DNA of 64,000 nucleotides from Salinibacter sp. 10B (GTDB lineage Bacteria > Bacteroidota > Rhodothermia > Rhodothermales > Salinibacteraceae). How positions within the stretch are numbered: position 1 is the stretch's first letter; each line of letters begins with the position of its first letter. The translations under genes were made by a program, and so were the position numbers. The stretch lies in NCBI RefSeq assembly GCF_002954405.1, contig NZ_MQWC01000004.1, positions 4,010,613 to 4,074,612 on the forward strand, in the 5' to 3' direction. The notes under the pieces were generated by a model. It did no database searches and was not told where the DNA came from. It saw only the letters and a program-made list of their open reading frames with translations. Shown here piece by piece: positions 42,650-51,597 of this stretch.

Positions 42650-45022
42650 TTAGAACCGAACGGTCAGGTCCGTCGTGAATACGCGGCCGGGCTCCGGAAT
42701 GGGCGTCCCGACGTACGGATTTTTTGCGTTGAGGTGGTTCACGTAGTTTGTGTCCGTGAGATTGCACACGCCGCCGTCGAGCGACACACCGTATCCCAGC
42801 TCTACCCCGGCGCTGAGGTTCCACGTGACGTAGCCCTCCGTCGGCGTTTCGCCAAGCACTGTCGCCACTCGATCTTGCTCCACGGCGGCGTTCAGCGTGC
42901 TTTCGATGTAGTAGCGTCCCCGGGGCGGCTCCCAGCGAAGCCGCAGGTCGCCGTGCAGCGGAGAGAGGCCCAAGGCGGGCTGATTCGTTTCCAGGTTTTT
43001 CCCCCAGAGGTAGCTCCCCCGTACGCGGGCCGTGAGCGATGGGAGCACCGCGACCGACGCCGTAGTTTCGCCGCCGTAAAAGTGTGCGGTGCCGTTTGCG
43101 TAGCGGAACGGGCCCTCCGCAAAGATTGGAAGAGGGAGCATCGGTTCCACGTCCGGCGCGTTTCGGAGCGTGATGTAGTTGGAGATGCGGCGGGCAAAGC
43201 CGCTGACTTTGACGGCGACACGATCATAGCGCGCCTCCAGTTCAAAGTCGGTTTGCCAAGAGCGCTCCGGATCCAGGCGCGGGTTGCCGATGAACTCGGC
43301 GCTCGTCTGCGCCTTGTTCGAGGGAAAGCGGTCGGCAAAGCGCTCCAGTGCACTGGCCGTTCGTACGGCCGTGCCCCCGCCCACCGAGAGGGACCACGCG
43401 GGCGAGAGGGGCACCGAGAGCATCAGCGCCCCGCTCACGTTGAGCTCCTGCTGGTTGAGGGCGTTCACGTCGAGCGACCCGTCGCCCGGGGCGGCGATGT
43501 CGAGGTACACGTCCGTGACCTGAGACTCATCGGCTCCGGTCCAAACGGCGTCGGTGCGCACCGTGCCGGTGGCTTCGACACTCCCGAACAGGCGTGTGGC
43601 CTGGGCAAAGATGCCCGCGTCGGCGATGGAGACGCCCGGCCAGATTTGGTTGCTCTCGTAGAAGGGGGGCGTCATCGGCGTCCCGTTCATGACGACCTGG
43701 AAGGGCCGCTCTGCGTCGCGGTAGGCCCGGTAGCCGTCGACCCCAACCGTGAGGCGGAGGTCCGAAGCGGGCGCCATTTCCGTCGCGAATCGTCCCCCGA
43801 CCGTTGTGATGTCGGAATGGACCGAGACGCGCAACGGGGGGCCGGGAAAATCCTCAGAGGCGTAGGTGACCTTGCCCTCATTATTCATCGTGTGGAGGGT
43901 TTGGTAGCCGTACGCCTTCGCGGTGACGGAGCGCACGAGGCCCTGGCCCGAGGCATATTCGTACCCAAGCCGTGCCCGTCCGCTCTTGAAGACCGTCGCG
44001 TTCAGCAGCCGGCCCGGGTAGTTCACGTCGTCCTGTTGCTGATACCCGCCCCCGGCCGTGAGGCGCTGGTTATCGTCGATCTTGTAGCCGACCTTGGCGC
44101 GGAGCTCGCGGTTCAAGAAGTCCGCCGGGACCGACGTTCCGTCTCCGGCGTCGTAGTCATTCCCTTCACGATAGGCGCCATCGATGCGGTACGCGAACGA
44201 ACCGCGTCGCCCATTCGCGGTGCCGGTGACGTCGTAGGAGCCGAAATTTGTGTCATAGCCACTTTTAACCTGCCCACTCACCGGCTCGTCCCGTGGTACG
44301 CGGAAGAGGTCGTTCGTCTCGACCCGAATGGCACTGAGTTGACCGCCGCCCCAGGTGAGCGCGTACGGTCCTTTCGCTACCTCGATGCTCTGCATGGTCG
44401 AGGGGCCGGTGTGACTCAGCGGCGAGTCCATGCGGGCCGGGCCGGCGGGAAAGGTGCGCATGCCGTCGACGTAGACGCCGACTTGTGTTGCGCGCAGACC
44501 CCGTACGACGGGATCGAGGCCGATGGGCCCGCGCCGGACGGCATCGGTCCCGGGGAGGGTGCGCATCAGTTCTCCGGCATCACGGGGACTCGCTTCCTGA
44601 ATGCCGGCTTTTCGGACCTTTTCGGCGGCTTCGCGGGCCCGACGTTCGGCTGTGACCTCCACCGCTTCGAGGCCGACGGTCCGTGATGAGAGCGAGAGTT
44701 CAAGGCGGACTGTTTCGCCCGCGACCACGCGGAGGTCGCGTGAGAGGGGGGCATAGCCGACGAAGCGGGCCTGTATCGTGTATTGGCCGGGCGGGAGATC
44801 CTCCACGACGAAGCGACCTTCAGGTCCGGTACTCGTCCCGCGCCGGATGTCGTTAGCGGTTCCTTTCACCAGTACATTCACACTGGGCAAGGGGCGGCCC
44901 GTCTCCGCGTTGATCGTACGCCCGCTCACGGCACCGGTCGATTGGGCGAACACCGGGGCGCTTCCGACAACAGAAAGGATGAAAAGTACAGTGAGGGTAC
45001 AGAGGGTACGAATGGGTCTCAT
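42650..45022 (-). CDS. TonB-dependent receptor, probably copper-related (OprC/NosA-like)
   Basis: 790-residue outer-membrane receptor from ATG 45022 (a start 5 codons earlier is possible). Signal peptide (LTVLFILSVVGSAPVFAQ), carboxypeptidase-regulatory-like domain (SGRTINAETGRPLPSVNVLV), plug (DAGELMRTLPGTDAVRRGPI, VVRGLRATQVGVYVDGMRTF), 22-strand-type barrel ending PGRVFTTDLTVRF. The plug motif with RGPIGLDPVVRG resembles copper receptors of the NosA/OprC group. The SCO-CusF gene downstream and His/Cys-rich protein upstream strengthen a copper role. No STN domain, so it is not FecI-controlled. Confidence 0.88.
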   Translation of the reverse strand: MRPIRTLCTLTVLFILSVVGSAPVFAQSTGAVSGRTINAETGRPLPSVNVLVKGTANDIRRGTSTGPEGRFVVEDLPPGQYTIQARFVGYAPLSRDLRVVAGETVRLELSLSSRTVGLEAVEVTAERRAREAAEKVRKAGIQEASPRDAGELMRTLPGTDAVRRGPIGLDPVVRGLRATQVGVYVDGMRTFPAGPARMDSPLSHTGPSTMQSIEVAKGPYALTWGGGQLSAIRVETNDLFRVPRDEPVSGQVKSGYDTNFGSYDVTGTANGRRGSFAYRIDGAYREGNDYDAGDGTSVPADFLNRELRAKVGYKIDDNQRLTAGGGYQQQDDVNYPGRLLNATVFKSGRARLGYEYASGQGLVRSVTAKAYGYQTLHTMNNEGKVTYASEDFPGPPLRVSVHSDITTVGGRFATEMAPASDLRLTVGVDGYRAYRDAERPFQVVMNGTPMTPPFYESNQIWPGVSIADAGIFAQATRLFGSVEATGTVRTDAVWTGADESQVTDVYLDIAAPGDGSLDVNALNQQELNVSGALMLSVPLSPAWSLSVGGGTAVRTASALERFADRFPSNKAQTSAEFIGNPRLDPERSWQTDFELEARYDRVAVKVSGFARRISNYITLRNAPDVEPMLPLPIFAEGPFRYANGTAHFYGGETTASVAVLPSLTARVRGSYLWGKNLETNQPALGLSPLHGDLRLRWEPPRGRYYIESTLNAAVEQDRVATVLGETPTEGYVTWNLSAGVELGYGVSLDGGVCNLTDTNYVNHLNAKNPYVGTPIPEPGRVFTTDLTVRF

Positions 45023-45085
45023 AAGAGAGTCCTCCACGAATCAGTCAGTCCCATGCCCGGATCCTGACGGGACACGGGATCCTAT

Positions 45086-45547
45086 TCAGGCAAAAGAAGA
45101 GGCCTGCAGGATCGGATCAGGCCGGTCGGGGGCCTGAGGTCGTGGAGGATGAAAGACATCGTCGCCCGTCCGCTGCGATGATCGCGTGACGGAGGTGGAG
45201 CGGTGGACGATCGGTCGAGGACGAGGCCCCGGAAGTACTTCCGGGGACGGCGGTCTCCACTTCGGGGACGTGGCCGTAAGGAGGGCCGTCGAGGGGACCG
45301 AGGGGCAAGACTGGAGGGTGGGCTCGTCAGGCGTGTCCGAGGAGCTATGACTGCACTGGCATGGCCCGTCCGGATTCATGGGACAGTAGCCTGCAGGATG
45401 GGAGCACTCGTGGTGGGCCTGCGCAGGCTGGAAATGGTGTACGAGGGTATGGATCGGGAGGCCCTGCGCCCCGATGGCACAGACCAGGAGCAATACAAGT
45501 ACTTGCCCCCATCCGGATCGGCAAAATGCGAAGGACCAACTCGGCAT
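45086..45547 (-). CDS. Exported His/Cys-rich putative metal-binding protein
   Basis: 153 residues, no family recognised. A signal/TM segment (GQVLVLLLVCAIGAQGLP, about 14-31) is followed by a compact metal-ligand region, residues 33-67, with HTLVHHF, HHECSHPAGYCPMNP and CQCSHSS: six His and four Cys in 35 residues. The rest is Pro/Ser-rich and probably disordered. It is the first gene of a minus-strand cluster with a TonB receptor (64 bases downstream) and a SCO-CusF protein. Inference: a periplasmic copper-binding or -sensing protein. Confidence 0.65.
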   Translation of the reverse strand: MPSWSFAFCRSGWGQVLVLLLVCAIGAQGLPIHTLVHHFQPAQAHHECSHPAGYCPMNPDGPCQCSHSSSDTPDEPTLQSCPSVPSTALLTATSPKWRPPSPEVLPGPRPRPIVHRSTSVTRSSQRTGDDVFHPPRPQAPDRPDPILQASSFA

Positions 45548-46972: not shown

Positions 46973-48082
46973 CTAGTCGGATGGGGCGGAGGGAGTAGTG
47001 CGGGAGGCGGGGGCGCCCGTGGGGGAAGAGGCTGTGGCGGAATCCGTAATGGGGGCACACCAGAGCACCCCCTGGGGCAGGAGCGACAGTTCGGCCTTGT
47101 TGCCGAAGTGACTCCGGAGGCGAGCGTAGAGGTCGGCAATGCCAGAGCCGCGGCGGAGCACAGTGTCGGGGTCTGTGGTGTCGAAGCCGGGACCGGTGTC
47201 AAGTACGGCGAGGCAGAGCCGATCGTCGTCGTGCCGACCCGTGATCGTGATGGTGCAGGGCTCGTTGAGCTTTCCGGCGCCGTGCTCGACGGCATTCTCC
47301 AGAAGCGGAATCAGTGTAAGCCGGGGCACCGGGACTGAGAGCAACGAGTCGGGCACGTCGAAGCCGACCTCCAGGTCATCACCGGACTGCATTTGTACAA
47401 GCTCAACGTACCAGAGCGCGGCTTCAATCTCGTCGGACAGGGGCACCAACTCGTCCCCAGCGGCTTGTCGACGATAGGTGAGCAGGGACTGTAGTTGATG
47501 GAGAAGGGGCCGGGCCGCCTCTGGCTTCTGGTCCAGAAGGGTCTGTGCCAGGTCCAGAGTCTCGAAGAGAACCGGGGGGCAGCACTGGGTCCGCAGGCGA
47601 CGCATTCGGGCCTCCCAGCCTTCCGCATGGTCCTGTCGGTCGCGTCGGTAGTAGGCTTGTAATGCCTGGACCCCCGTACTCCCCCCCACGATAAGAGCCG
47701 CACCCGTCCCAATTCCAAGCAACAGGATCCAGGAGGTCGGGAAGGCCGTGCCGAGAAGGGCCTTAAGACCGGCGGTCAAGCCCAGGAAGATGAGCAGGGT
47801 CCCCCCGGCGGGGGCAAGGGCGTGAAGGACGATGTCTCCCTCCGACTGCACGGGCACGAAGGCCTCCATTACGATCTGTATGATGCGGGTGGTGGCATCA
47901 ATAACAGCCACGTACAGGACCCCCACCAGCACGCTGTTGCCGAGGACGACGGGGGACCAGGAGCTGAATTCAAACCCCCCAGGTCCGCTCACATACACGG
48001 CGAGTCCAGCGACGGCACCGATGAGGAACACGAACCCGGCTCGGCGCAGGCCGTCGGCGATGGAAGACACCAGGGTGGACAT
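46973..48082 (-). CDS. LytS-type sensor histidine kinase-like protein, phospho-acceptor site degenerate
   Basis: 369 residues. Four TM helices in the first ~135 residues (GFVFLIGAVAGLAVYV, VVLGNSVLVGVLYVAVI, GGTLLIFLGLTAGL, WILLLGIGTGAALIVG). The His_kinase region reads RTQCCPPVLFETLDLAQ (about 164-180) where LytS kinases have AQxxPHFLFNxLN; the His is replaced by Pro170 and a Cys pair is present. The GHKL ATPase is intact: N-box ENAVEHG (262-268), GPGFD (297-301) and RGSGIADLYARL. No response regulator adjoins. Autophosphorylation at the usual site looks impossible; it may be a pseudokinase or use another residue. Confidence 0.82.
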   Translation of the reverse strand: MSTLVSSIADGLRRAGFVFLIGAVAGLAVYVSGPGGFEFSSWSPVVLGNSVLVGVLYVAVIDATTRIIQIVMEAFVPVQSEGDIVLHALAPAGGTLLIFLGLTAGLKALLGTAFPTSWILLLGIGTGAALIVGGSTGVQALQAYYRRDRQDHAEGWEARMRRLRTQCCPPVLFETLDLAQTLLDQKPEAARPLLHQLQSLLTYRRQAAGDELVPLSDEIEAALWYVELVQMQSGDDLEVGFDVPDSLLSVPVPRLTLIPLLENAVEHGAGKLNEPCTITITGRHDDDRLCLAVLDTGPGFDTTDPDTVLRRGSGIADLYARLRSHFGNKAELSLLPQGVLWCAPITDSATASSPTGAPASRTTPSAPSD

Positions 48083-48095
48083 GCTGAGGGAAGGG

Positions 48096-48146
48096 GTGAT
48101 GCGTGAGGGAGGACGGATTCACTGTCAATCACGTATCACGCATCAC
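48096..48146. repeat. Intergenic hairpin (GTGATGCGTGA-type family)
   Basis: Perfect 11-base arms, gtgatgcgtga (48096-48106) and tcacgcatcac (48136-48146), with a 29-base loop, fill the 85-base gap between the kinase-like gene and the membrane protein gene. Related arms occur at 56577-56632. No T-run is present. Confidence 0.6.
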
Positions 48147-48167
48147 GTTCCAGGGCGTCTTGTCCCT

Positions 48168-49034
48168 TCAGTTGGAGATGTCGGCGAGCTTGGCGTGGAG
48201 GTCCCACAGCCCCAGCGCCCCGAGAAGGGCCAGGTCCACGAAGAGGAGGGGAGCAAAGACCGGCGCCCCGAAGCGCAGAGCATCCCAGAGTCCCCTTTCC
48301 AGCGCCCCCTCATGGAAGAGCGGAGCCACGTGCAGACCGAATCCGAGCAGCCCGGTTGCCCCCTGAAGGAGCAGCACACCGTACCCAACGAGAATCACGA
48401 GCCGGGTGGGCGGCCGGAGGATAATTGCCCCGAAGAGGCCGACCGCCAGCGCGCTCACCACAACTGGAATCCACTCTGTCCAGTAGAAAAAGGCGTTCTG
48501 CGCATGATCGATGAGAGAGAGGGCAAAATTCCCAATGAAGCCGCCCAGGGCAAGGAAGGAGACCCACTGCCCCCATACCGGAGAGTCCGGGTCTTCCATT
48601 CGGTTGAGGAGGAGCAGGCAGCCGAGCCCGGCAAATGCGAGCGGGGCCACGAATGGAGCAGAGTAGACGAGGCTTTTGAGGGTGACGGATTCGAAAAACC
48701 AGCCCTCAAGGTGCCACACAAGTCCGGCCAGCCCCACCAGAATGGACGCCCATCCGACGGCGAGGCCAATCCAGCGGGCCTGCCCCGTTCGGCGCTGATA
48801 TTCCTGCCAGATCGCGAAGCCGAGCACGGCCGTCCCGCCGATGGAGAAGTACACCGGGATCCATTCGGCCCAGTGGGCAAAGTCGTTGAAGGAATGCGCT
48901 AAGTAGACATCCAGAATCAGGAAGAACAGGTTTGAGAGCACGAACACCTCCAGCAGAAACGGACGGCTGAGAGACAACTCCGCCCATTTTTGGAGGAGAG
49001 GCGTGTCGGTCGTCGTCTCAGTCGCTTGGGTCAT
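48168..49034 (-). CDS. Polytopic membrane protein of two similar four-helix halves, coupled to the octaheme cytochrome
   Basis: 288 residues, about eight TM helices; family not recognised. Two segments repeat a motif: FNDFAHWAEWIPVYFSIGG near residue 55 and AQNAFFYWTEWIPVVVSALA near 190, indicating an internal duplication. Conserved-looking His residues lie at helix ends (VYLAHSF, FAHW, WHLEGW, LIDHAQN, FGLHVAPLFHEG), which could ligate b-haems or bind quinone, though this is inference. Its start overlaps the end of the octaheme cytochrome gene by 17 bases, implying translational coupling and a shared complex. Start ATG 49034. Confidence 0.75.
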   Translation of the reverse strand: MTQATETTTDTPLLQKWAELSLSRPFLLEVFVLSNLFFLILDVYLAHSFNDFAHWAEWIPVYFSIGGTAVLGFAIWQEYQRRTGQARWIGLAVGWASILVGLAGLVWHLEGWFFESVTLKSLVYSAPFVAPLAFAGLGCLLLLNRMEDPDSPVWGQWVSFLALGGFIGNFALSLIDHAQNAFFYWTEWIPVVVSALAVGLFGAIILRPPTRLVILVGYGVLLLQGATGLLGFGLHVAPLFHEGALERGLWDALRFGAPVFAPLLFVDLALLGALGLWDLHAKLADISN

Positions 49035-50262
49035 GGGAGCGGAGCTCCTTAGCCTTTTCTTTAAGGTGTACGAAGCGGGCCAGCAGTTCATAGTTTCCAT
49101 GCCACTGCACATAGTCGGGTCCTCCCATGAAGGCCCCGTGCTTTGCCGTGCGGCCGTAATAGTGCCAGTAGTCAAAGATCTCAAACTCTAGCGGTTCGTC
49201 GAACGGCGTCGGCGTGAGGTGCCCTTCGGCCCGCAGGGAGTCGACGATGTTCATGTAGTTGTTGACCTTTTCGTTGGTGGCCCGCACGACACTCTCGGCG
49301 TCGTCATAGTACTCGTTGGTGTGTTCGGCGGTATGGCAGTTGTTGCAGGCCCGCTTCATGGCGGCCTGGTTGGCAGCGTAGTTTGGCCGTTTTTCCGAGA
49401 CGGGAGCGAACAGGTACCAGGAAAGTCGCTTGCTCACATTGTGGGTGACCGCGAGGCCGCCTTGCCCGCTCATGTGGCAGGTGGCGCAGGTGGGGGAGGG
49501 CATGTCACGTACTGTCAACTCTTCCGGCTCGGCGTCCATGTTGTACTCATCCCCATTCGTCTCGAAGAGCACGCCGTGCTTCGACTCCTCGAAGATCTCG
49601 ATCTGAGCGTGATCGGGACCCATGTGGCATTGGCCGCACGTACGGGGTTCGCGGGCGAGCTCCACGGAGGCTTCGTGGCGGCCGTGACACTGCGTGCAAG
49701 ACCCGATGGACCCATCCGGGTTCGGCTTGCCGATGTCGTGACAGCCCTGGCATCCCACCTCCCGAGCCGCCTCTCCCTCCAGTTGGGCCAATCGATTGGC
49801 CGGGCGGGCCACCGCCCCCTCGTGATACTGCTCCGCAAACGCAATTTGCTCCTGCGTGAAATCCGTTGAGCCCTGTACTGCGGCCCAGGCGGGGGCGGCA
49901 TGCCGACTGCGCAGGAATTGTCGATTTTCCTCGGCATGGCACTGACTGCAGTTTTTCGCCGTGAGCGATGTGGCCAGTGTAAACCCCCTATGCTCAAAAG
50001 ACTCTTGTCCGTCTTGCGGCTGGTGACAGTCGAGACAATTCGTCCCTTCTTGAACGTGCTCGCTGCGCTCATATTCTTCTACGATGGCGGGCGTCTCACG
50101 GCGATGGCACGAAGCGCACTTCCCCGTCGCCTTCACGAGTTCCGCGCTCGGCTGCTCGGTCGCCACATGGGGGCGCTGGGCCTGGAGAAAGAACGCTCCA
50201 ACGACGAGGGCCCCGGCAATGGTGAGTGCAATGAATACGGACTTAAAGGAGTCCAACTCCAT
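49018..50262 (-). CDS. Membrane-anchored octaheme cytochrome c, hydroxylamine oxidoreductase (HAO) family
   Basis: 414 residues. One N-terminal TM anchor (SVFIALTIAGALVVGAFFLQ) precedes eight CxxCH sites starting at residues 49, 76, 105, 171, 189, 209, 259 and 306, the count and spacing of HAO-type octaheme proteins. The C-terminal FDYWHYYGRTAKHGAFMGG and PDYVQWHGNYELL are HAO-like, with Tyr391 near where the P460 cross-linking Tyr is expected. Possible reactions are hydroxylamine oxidation or reductive N-oxide chemistry. ATG 50262 was chosen over a GTG 8 codons upstream. A good promoter lies 66 bases before it. Confidence 0.88.
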   Translation of the reverse strand: MELDSFKSVFIALTIAGALVVGAFFLQAQRPHVATEQPSAELVKATGKCASCHRRETPAIVEEYERSEHVQEGTNCLDCHQPQDGQESFEHRGFTLATSLTAKNCSQCHAEENRQFLRSRHAAPAWAAVQGSTDFTQEQIAFAEQYHEGAVARPANRLAQLEGEAAREVGCQGCHDIGKPNPDGSIGSCTQCHGRHEASVELAREPRTCGQCHMGPDHAQIEIFEESKHGVLFETNGDEYNMDAEPEELTVRDMPSPTCATCHMSGQGGLAVTHNVSKRLSWYLFAPVSEKRPNYAANQAAMKRACNNCHTAEHTNEYYDDAESVVRATNEKVNNYMNIVDSLRAEGHLTPTPFDEPLEFEIFDYWHYYGRTAKHGAFMGGPDYVQWHGNYELLARFVHLKEKAKELRSHDPSD

Positions 50263-50327
50263 GGTAATTGTGGCGCGGGGACCCACGCTTGGTTTATGGA
50301 AGTGTAGGTCGCGTGAAGTGAAAGGGT

Positions 50328-50356
50328 ATTGTAAGGAAGCAGAGGTGGGAATGCAA
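50328..50356 (-). promoter_or_regulatory. Sigma70-like promoter of the octaheme cytochrome operon (TTGCAT-17-TACAAT)
   Basis: On the minus strand TTGCAT (50356-50351) and TACAAT (50333-50328) are separated by 17 bases. The start codon is at 50262. No FNR- or NsrR-like dyad was recognised around it. Confidence 0.55.
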
Positions 50357-50631
50357 CGAAGGTGATAATTTTCGAAGATCCAGGAAGCGAGGAGGACTTA
50401 GTAGATTTTAGGGGCACGATTTGCGCAACTGGGGGAGCGATCAATAATAAAATGCTCTGCTACGACTACGGAGCGGCCGGAGAACAGGAGGCTGCCGACG
50501 CCTCTGGAGTCTGGAGAAGTGGTCGCTATGGTCGTCCTTCGGGAAGACTGACGGCGAAATTCTCAGGGCCGGTGCGCGTGTTGGTAGGACCTCCCCCTTT
50601 CGGCGTTTTTATCTGAACTCATTTCCTTGCA
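50357..50631. other. Divergent gap between octaheme cytochrome and carotene dioxygenase genes
   Basis: The plus strand carries a weaker promoter-like pair, TTGCGC at 50421-50426 and TAATAA at 50445-50450 (18-base spacer), about 180 bases before the dioxygenase ATG. An 84-codon GTG frame from 50362 exists but does not look like a protein. Nothing else recognised. Confidence 0.35.
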
Positions 50632-51597
50632 ATGCCTGTGGCCGACTCTCCCACGCTTCGTTCGTCACGCATCTACATCCCGGTCGTTGGCCTCACGGCG
50701 CTCACGGTTGTTGTCGGACTTTGGAATGGATCCGTTCTCAATACGGCTGCCATCGGGATTCTCCTCATTGCCGTCGTTCTTACTGGCATGCCGCACGGAG
50801 CCATCGACCATCTTGTGGCAACCGAACTCTATTCCCTCCGTGCCACCTGGAGGGACCAGGCCAAGTTCTACGGCGGCTACCTTGCCCTCATGGCGCTCTA
50901 CGGGGCGTTCTGGGCAGTAGCGCCTGTCGGGTCGCTGGTCGTGTTTCTCGGAATGACAATGTACCACTTTGGACAGGCCGATCTGGCCTACTGGGACTTG
51001 TCTCCGCTTGGGGCTCGACTCGTGTACGTGTCTCGGGGCTTGTTTTTGATCGGGCTTCCCATTGCCGCATTTCCGATGCAGGTAGATCCGATCTTTGACG
51101 CGATCGCGGGCGTGCAGCCGTCGACGTGGCCCCTATTGTCGTCGCATCCGACGGCTGTGTGTGTGGCCCTGGTCCTTCAGCATGGAGTCGTGCTGGGGAT
51201 TGCCTCTCTGGGCGCGAACGTTGCTGCATGGAAGCAGGGCCGAGAAGCCCTCAATGTGATGGTCCTCGGGGCTCTGTTCGGATTCGTGCATCCACTGGCA
51301 GCCTTTGCAGTGTACTTCGGGCTTTGGCACTCCTTCGGACACATTTTGGAGCTTCTCCGGTTCTTTCGTCGTCAGGACAGTACGCCGGCCACACTCACGG
51401 CGTTTTATGGGAAGGCTGCTCTGTTTACTCTTCTTCCGTTCGTAGGGCTTGGGGGATTATACTGGGCGACGCAGGCGTTCGGCTCCACGGACCAGATGAT
51501 TGCGCTCCTCTTCATCATTATTGCTGTAATGACGCTGCCCCACATGATCATTGTGGAGCGGCTGTATCGAGAGCGGGAGGAGCGACGAGTTGCATAA
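50632..51597 (+). CDS. blh: Brp/Blh-family beta-carotene 15,15'-dioxygenase
   Basis: Integral membrane enzyme cleaving beta-carotene to two retinal molecules, the chromophore of microbial rhodopsins. 321 residues, about eight TM helices. The family's iron-site His motifs are present: TGMPHGAIDHLVA near residue 52, TMYHFGQADLAYWD near 108, LWHSFGHILELLR near 240 and TLPHMIIVERLYRE near 305. No rhodopsin or carotenoid gene is adjacent, so the rhodopsin must lie elsewhere if present. Confidence 0.92.
   Translation: MPVADSPTLRSSRIYIPVVGLTALTVVVGLWNGSVLNTAAIGILLIAVVLTGMPHGAIDHLVATELYSLRATWRDQAKFYGGYLALMALYGAFWAVAPVGSLVVFLGMTMYHFGQADLAYWDLSPLGARLVYVSRGLFLIGLPIAAFPMQVDPIFDAIAGVQPSTWPLLSSHPTAVCVALVLQHGVVLGIASLGANVAAWKQGREALNVMVLGALFGFVHPLAAFAVYFGLWHSFGHILELLRFFRRQDSTPATLTAFYGKAALFTLLPFVGLGGLYWATQAFGSTDQMIALLFIIIAVMTLPHMIIVERLYREREERRVA

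Follow-up and report, generated by a model that had tools for sequence, protein, structure and literature searches.

A conserved gene pair of Salinibacter sp. 10B encoding a membrane-anchored octaheme cytochrome and a duplicated membrane protein, a possible route for electrons from quinol to nitrogen compounds

From which partner would a membrane-anchored octaheme cytochrome receive its electrons, and to which substrate would it pass them, if the only gene conserved beside its own encodes a membrane protein of no named family? This question is raised by a locus of Salinibacter sp. 10B (class Rhodothermia) in a stretch of 64,000 nucleotides (assembly GCF_002954405.1, contig NZ_MQWC01000004.1, positions 4,010,613 to 4,074,612), hereafter the window, to which all coordinates refer. 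On its minus strand, an open reading frame (ORF) running from an ATG at 50262 to a stop codon at 49018 encodes a 414-residue c-type cytochrome with eight CxxCH motifs and a predicted N-terminal transmembrane (TM) anchor (residues ~5–25; 50188–50250); a GTG farther upstream, at 50286, is an alternative start that would yield 422 amino acids. The protein matches PF13447 with an E-value of 5.2e-26, the single match to this family in the whole Salinibacter genome, which likewise yielded a single octaheme match. On the same strand lies the ORF of a 288-residue polytopic protein with about eight TM segments (49034–48168), whose start is preceded by AAGGAG and whose frame shares exactly 17 bases with that of the octaheme (49018–49034). 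A first-pass annotation, made from the DNA sequence, had described an anchored eight-heme protein resembling hydroxylamine oxidoreductase (HAO), its polytopic partner and the overlap, and all of these were recovered. The two genes are a conserved two-gene system, found together far beyond chance, and the encoded pair probably delivers respiratory-chain electrons to a small nitrogen compound, for example nitrite.

The conservation of the pair was assessed with a profile built from seven membrane proteins and run against named genomes, a search in which records close to the Salinibacter genome may be missing. It yielded 61 membrane-protein loci, 57 of which have an octaheme gene directly upstream on the same strand (56 identified by ORF scan, plus L057, whose octaheme gene runs off the contig); the start of the membrane gene, as picked by script, overlaps the octaheme gene in 38 of 56 loci. 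At each of the remaining four loci the membrane protein is truncated: at L026 and L081, the upstream side of the gene is cut off by the contig end or lies next to it, and L079 and L084 have fragments near the other contig end, with no octaheme gene within ~6 kb upstream. Widespread homologs of the membrane protein without the cytochrome, a pattern that the first-pass annotation had named as contrary to its proposal, were thus not encountered. Co-occurrence was also found in the opposite direction. Ten of 244 Rhodothermia genomes had an octaheme match at 1e-20, namely eight octahemes of the type studied here, one decayed copy and one distant soluble type (G044); the membrane gene adjoins seven of the eight, and the eighth genome (G005) has its two genes on separate contigs, each at a contig end. 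Among 198 genomes sampled from the class to which G134 belongs (Singulisphaera, Planctomycetia), 37 had an octaheme match, and all 20 octahemes with E < 1e-200 have the membrane gene directly downstream (five of these 20 loci were already part of the 61-locus scan); none of ten more distant Planctomycetia octaheme loci (L116–L125) adjoins it. Pairwise identities of the octaheme and the membrane protein are correlated (r 0.86 for 1431 pairs from 54 loci, uncorrected for kinship). Clustering of the neighboring genes at the 61 loci revealed no third conserved gene, only scattered small groups, antisense artefacts and a Verrucomicrobia set, and a search for plasmid copies of the unit gave no match.

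By record title, the carriers belong to the Rhodothermota, Bacteroidota, Neomarinimicrobiota, Planctomycetota, Acidobacteriota, Verrucomicrobiota, Gemmatimonadota, Zixiibacteriota, Poribacteria, Hydrogenedentota, KSB1, Myxococcota and Chloroflexota and include an uncultured proteobacterium, so that about a dozen phyla are named; most carriers are metagenome-assembled genomes (MAGs). The nearest named relative (88% identical) comes from a Salinivenus MAG, also of the Rhodothermia. An aerobic heterotrophic halophile had initially been regarded as an unexpected host. Since the unit is spread over many phyla, some of whose carrier groups are aerobic heterotrophs, the idea of a peculiar host found no support. 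A decayed unit occurs in a genome of the same genus (G009; L009/L022), where octaheme residues ~21–121 run into membrane-protein residues ~223–285, and the unit is therefore being lost in one relative.

A profile of octaheme relatives found PDB entry 4qo5 as its best structural match (4.6e-52) and matched the HAO chains 1fgj, 4fas and 6m0p at about 2e-33 to 3e-33. The first CxxCH lies 45 residues past the start in most relatives (starts picked by script). In an alignment of 55 octahemes, the heme motifs of the window protein are CASCH (residues 49–53, 50104–50118; C, C and H invariant in 55/55), CLDCH (76–80, 50023–50037), CSQCH (105–109, 49936–49950), CQGCH (171–175, 49738–49752), CTQCH (189–193, 49684–49698), CGQCH (209–213, 49624–49638), CATCH (259–263, 49474–49488) and CNNCH (306–310, 49333–49347). 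The fourth motif aligns with the motif of the active-site (P460) heme of NeHAO, the Nitrosomonas HAO (4fas). All eight motifs are CxxCH, and none is the CxxCK that marks the active-site heme of ONR. The sequence GPDH (215–218, 49609–49620) aligns with GVDH of NeHAO, which contains the active-site Asp-His pair, and D217 and H218 are invariant in 55/55 octahemes. In a MAFFT alignment, W387 stands opposite Y467 of NeHAO, with M379 eight residues before it (49102–49128), and both residues are invariant (55/55). A phmmer alignment of the related octaheme L024 places the residue before the Trp at the Tyr467 position; given these two registers and the invariant His beside W387 (H388, 55/55), the exact register is therefore unsure. 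Tyr occurs in neither register (Q386 is Gln in 54 and His in one of the 55 sequences, W387 is always Trp), and the cross-linking Tyr of oxidative HAO and HDH is not present in any of the 55 octahemes.

These residues bear on the direction of the reaction. Epsilon-HAO is reported to have Trp in place of the Tyr and a Met eight residues before it (PMC8940962), HAOs without the cross-linking Tyr are predicted to be reductive (PMC12758564, PMC8940962), and reductive ancestors are described with His at the key site (PMC12758564). The invariant M379 and W387 give the present octaheme this reductive-type signature. Kuenenia HAOr reduces nitrite to NO (PMC12485887). Membership in the HAO superfamily and the Asp-His pocket would also suit a hydroxylamine (or hydrazine) dehydrogenase that feeds the quinone pool through the membrane protein, but with Trp instead of Tyr at the cross-link position in 55/55 sequences, and under the published rule for HAOs lacking the cross-link, we regard such an oxidative enzyme as very improbable. 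Hydroxylamine oxidation was rejected as a likely activity because the cross-linking Tyr is missing and the octaheme lies outside the branch of the PDB HAO rows.

This branch was obtained in a tree of 74 rows, four of which are partial PDB sequences on long branches, so that their joins may be false. One side of the tree (support 100/99) contains the HAO rows 4fas, 4n4j and 6h5l together with the soluble octahemes L023 and L024, and the other side the octahemes linked to the membrane protein, those linked to cytochrome b (see below) and 4qo5. A single clade for all 59 membrane-protein-linked rows was neither established nor rejected (p-AU 0.377); the free tree separated these 59 rows plus the five HAO-side rows from 4qo5 and the cytochrome-b-linked octahemes with a support of 69/63. 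The initial placement of the octaheme in the HAO clade thus holds at the level of the superfamily and not for the HAO branch itself: judged by its sequence, the protein is a member of the HAO superfamily and not an HAO in the strict sense, with a weakly supported order of the deep branches. L023 and L024 (G044 and G051, of the same order) have the Trp of the Tyr site and lack the Met eight positions earlier, and neither the new membrane protein nor cytochrome b was found beside them within the stretch examined.

The membrane protein of the window (48168–49034) has no match in Pfam or NCBIfam and contains no heme motif. Nor was a credible Pfam or NCBIfam match obtained for any member of a 51-member alignment (Pfam searched at E 0.1), whose profile found nothing credible in the PDB either. 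Weak matches to Zip, Ceramidase, ComEC (NCBIfam only) and others, in one to three members each, and two PDB matches near E 0.5 were treated as noise. NrfD, NapC/NrfH, NarI and cytochrome b561 were not among the Pfam families matched by the 51 members at this threshold, and kinship with cytochrome b was rejected after comparison with six octaheme-linked cytochromes b (hhalign probability 0.1%). The two halves of the protein are homologous to each other (hhalign probability 98.6, E 5.5e-16, 101 columns). Repeat 1 comprises residues 25–150 (48585–48962) and repeat 2 residues 151–280 (48195–48584), each with about four TM segments, the pattern H-x2-N-x-F-x4-E and a second His closing the third helix. 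The duplication had been proposed from the shared motif AEWIPV/TEWIPV and His residues at helix ends, and both motif copies and the position of the His at predicted helix ends were verified.

One pair of His per repeat, H47 (48894–48896) and H108 (48711–48713) in the first and H177 (48504–48506) and H235 (48330–48332) in the second, is invariant in 78/78 rows, i.e., in the window protein and 77 relatives, with the four truncated proteins excluded; about 73 of these rows are distinct, as five rows from Planctomycetia are identical over long stretches to rows of the initial scan. A lack of conserved His pairs, the other observation held to be contrary to the early proposal, was accordingly not what the alignment revealed. 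A46, E57, P60, G101, G104, P127, P131, D176, A178, W188 and G231 are likewise invariant in the 78 rows, and D42 differs in a single one. Loops bearing invariant residues contain on average 0.2–1.2 Lys plus Arg, as compared to 1.4–3.8 in the other loops; since the His-bearing loops are poorer in these residues, the invariant positions are predicted to be periplasmic, on the same side as the octaheme hemes (TM count and topology were derived from hydropathy and charge only). The four His make a bis-His heme b in the membrane protein possible, and the protein may be a quinone-linked b-type module. The suggestion that the duplicated protein is the redox partner of the octaheme appears to be correct, as it belongs to no named family, accompanies the octaheme in 57 of 61 loci and retains its four His in all rows.

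In the reading favored here, electrons would flow from quinol through the membrane protein and the octaheme to nitrite (or NO or hydroxylamine). The octaheme would be the catalytic subunit, anchored by its N-terminal helix and with all hemes in the periplasm, and heme 4, with the Asp-His pair and Trp in place of Tyr, would reduce nitrite, and possibly NO or hydroxylamine as well, in the direction of ammonium or NO. Electron input would be the task of the duplicated 8-TM protein, which would oxidize (mena)quinol close to the periplasmic face and hand the electrons to the octaheme, probably via one bis-His b heme per repeat (H47/H108 and H177/H235), and would thus fill the role held elsewhere by NapC/NrfH, NrfD or Rieske/cytochrome b. 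We infer the complex, the oxidation of quinol, the heme b, the substrate and the direction from the features described above, and consider it an even chance that the products of the two genes make up one complex in the inner membrane, where quinol-pool electrons would serve to reduce a small nitrogen compound. Somewhat more tentatively, the 8-TM protein might found a new class of quinol-oxidizing membrane cytochromes, built of a duplicated four-helix module with one periplasmic-face bis-His heme b per repeat and wired directly to an anchored octaheme. It might then add another way, next to NapC/NrfH, NrfD and Rieske/cytochrome b, of supplying multiheme N-oxide reductases with electrons from quinol, and replace NrfA in Planctomycetota, Acidobacteriota, Verrucomicrobiota, Neomarinimicrobiota and others.

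A quinol-derived electron supply is also suggested by the ten distant Planctomycetia octaheme loci. Nine of these octahemes (L116–L120 and L122–L125) are likewise anchored and have both the Asp-His pair and the Met/Trp signature, and the reading frame of the tenth (L121) is broken. A cytochrome b gene lies just upstream on the same strand, within ~0.6 kb, in 9/10 loci; six of the nine cytochromes b were called by Pfam (PF00033/PF13631) and those of L117, L118 and L124 by a profile of these six. The genomes were drawn from the Planctomycetia, a class distinct from the anammox ‘Candidatus Brocadiia’, and the nine loci, recognized by cytochrome b, are candidate Rieske/cytochrome b-octaheme units. 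Since related octahemes stand beside cytochrome b in nine of ten loci, anchored octahemes of this kin accompany quinol-oxidizing modules, and the natural reading of the sequences would be that a single kind of anchored octaheme is served by two different electron donors in the membrane. A Rieske/cytochrome b complex of Kuenenia contains an HAO-like octaheme, and conversion of nitrite to NO has been proposed for this complex (PMC12954380), an activity not demonstrated for that octaheme (PMC12485887).

The same loci fit another explanation, according to which the pair is an electron conduit from quinol to cytochrome c (or to the outside of the cell) and the octaheme replaces cytochrome c1/f instead of being a terminal reductase, as may happen in octaheme-containing Rieske/cytochrome b complexes. 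In two such complexes of Kuenenia a hexa- or octaheme cytochrome takes the place of cytochrome f (PMC12954380), and NarG was found in 0/25 of the carriers tested. A pure wire, however, would not need the invariant Asp-His pair, heme 4 and Met/Trp signature, and the clustering of neighbors showed no conserved oxidase or c-type acceptor gene beside the unit. Even with the aerobic heterotrophy of some carrier groups in its favor, we consider a mere conduit rather unlikely, and the reduction of a nitrogen compound remains our preferred function.

Some neighboring genes link the unit with nitrogen metabolism and support this reading. In three Verrucomicrobia loci (L063, L062 and L068) a qNOR gene follows the unit by ~150–170 bp (identified by PF22085 and COX1 in Pfam for L063, with L062 and L068 in the same gene cluster), and in a fourth Verrucomicrobia locus an Hcp gene (PF03063) precedes it by 28 bp; in one Chloroflexota locus CcmE and CcmF genes follow the unit. 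The qNOR and Hcp neighbors might also suggest a role of the unit in removing NO or hydroxylamine when conditions are micro-oxic, with no energy conserved, which would suit its patchy presence within a genus and the decayed copy in one relative. All four loci, though, belong to one close group, Hcp is not enriched in carriers, qNOR is sparse among them and FNR-type boxes upstream are not enriched (numbers below), so that we deem such a detoxifying role improbable. The reductive, quinol-linked reading finds some support in the distribution of NrfA (PF02335, E 1e-20). It was detected in 1/20 Planctomycetia carriers versus 9/20 non-carriers (Fisher p 0.008, kinship uncorrected), the latter being the first listed among the genomes without any octaheme match, and in 0/44 further carriers (44 of the 49 genomes in the qNOR survey) and 0/16 genomes with more distant octahemes. 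In total, one of 69 carrier records has NrfA, with Roseithermus probably counted twice, and a mutual exclusion of NrfA and anchored octahemes, uncorrected for kinship, is possible. The Salinibacter genome has its own NirK; reduction of nitrite, NO or hydroxylamine towards ammonium would therefore be the more useful reaction there. NirK was above the cut-off in 3/5 Rhodothermia carriers versus 0/5 same-genus non-carriers (p 0.17) and in 0/40 Planctomycetia.

Several observations weigh against reduction of a nitrogen compound by the pair. The four qNOR and Hcp loci stem from closely related Verrucomicrobia, and neighbors acting on nitrogen oxides are confined to that group. A qNOR above the cut-off was present in only 8/50 carrier genomes, Hcp showed no link with the unit (6/20 carriers versus 5/20 non-carriers), and NarG occurred in 0/50 genomes, carriers (25) and non-carriers alike, NapA not having been searched. 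NrfA was found in 0/5 Rhodothermia carriers and likewise in 0/5 same-genus non-carriers, and the NrfA counts ignore kinship and include many MAGs of unknown completeness. The NirK of Salinibacter would make a second nitrite-to-NO activity redundant there. FNR-type boxes with two or fewer mismatches were found upstream of 6/53 units as compared to 4.2 expected from shuffled sequences, hence without enrichment. Diheme cytochromes b usually hold one heme near each membrane face, whereas all four His of the present protein lie on one predicted side, so that the His could instead belong to a metal site or to a quinol site without cofactor.

The first-pass annotation had assigned the unit a promoter, TTGCAT-17-TACAAT. 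These letters are indeed present and agree with the sigma-70 consensus in ~8/12 positions, but they do not rise above chance: no site reached the threshold in a promoter scan of positions 48050–50650, for which shuffled sequences yield 0.6 sites by chance. Divergent from the octaheme gene, a gene for a Brp/Blh beta-carotene 15,15'-dioxygenase (PF15461, 1.2e-64) is located at 50632–51597 (+), and a gene resembling it is also near the unit in the Salinivenus locus L025. A histidine kinase gene (PF06580; 46973–48082, −) follows the membrane gene in the same orientation after 85 bases; a comparable gene comes after the unit in L025, and visual inspection of the genes closest to the unit at the other loci revealed none like it. 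Farther away, a gene for a TonB-dependent receptor (42650–45547, −) has a small Cys/His-rich ORF just upstream, and the two are possibly a metal uptake pair.

A description of the octaheme/membrane-protein pair was not found in the open-access literature, most subscription papers lying outside the search. Genome surveys label HAO-like octahemes of non-nitrifiers simply ‘hao’ or ‘Onr’, as for Phycisphaerae octahemes noted as Onr/Hao hits (PMC11266412) and for ‘hao’ of Planctomycetota and KSB1 (PMC10732223). In hypersaline mats, hao and hcp are the most abundant nitrogen-cycle genes, and 38 of the products of 52 HAO genes without Tyr carry the Trp/Met signature (PMC8940962). The available text of these three papers (PMC11266412, PMC10732223, PMC8940962) does not mention the membrane partner, and some of the surveyed octahemes may belong to the present unit. 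The reductive-type octaheme of the HAO superfamily is a kind already known, and its membrane module is apparently undescribed. Should the unit reduce nitrite or NO with electrons from quinol, a so far unrecognized nitrogen-cycle step would be added to heterotrophs from soil and sea in about a dozen phyla, and a new membrane electron carrier family would become open to testing. The gene of the membrane protein might also be used as a marker to distinguish octahemes of this type from the HAO of nitrifiers.

Four known systems invite comparison. The partner of epsilon-HAO is a tetraheme of the NapC/NrfH family, whereas the present octaheme, with 414 residues, is membrane-anchored and has a duplicated 8-TM partner without a NapC/NrfH match. 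The likeness to epsilon-HAO consists in Trp at the Tyr site and Met at minus eight (signature as quoted in PMC8940962) and would include the reductive direction; no row of the tree was a named epsilon-HAO sequence, and L023 and L024, which lack the Met, do not represent it. The Kuenenia complex R/b-3 with Kuste4574 and the nine Planctomycetia loci resemble the present unit in having an HAO-like octaheme beside a quinol-oxidizing membrane module, in the latter case an octaheme that also shares anchor, Met/Trp signature and Asp-His pair, but their partner is cytochrome b, which is unrelated to the present membrane protein. The best PDB match, 4qo5 (‘Hypothetical multiheme protein’), the Ignicoccus hospitalis octaheme Igni_0955, differs by Val in place of the His of the pair and Phe at the Trp site, and it is not known to have such a membrane partner. 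Igni_0955 is present in soluble and membrane fractions (PMC4429474). The membrane protein itself can be likened to the quinol subunits of the NrfD/PsrC type, which are polytopic, quinone-interacting partners of peripheral enzymes. PsrC has eight TM segments in two four-helix bundles. NrfD-like subunits are described as lacking redox cofactors (PMC8076601). In contrast, the present protein, which gave no NrfD match in any of 51 members, carries four invariant His.

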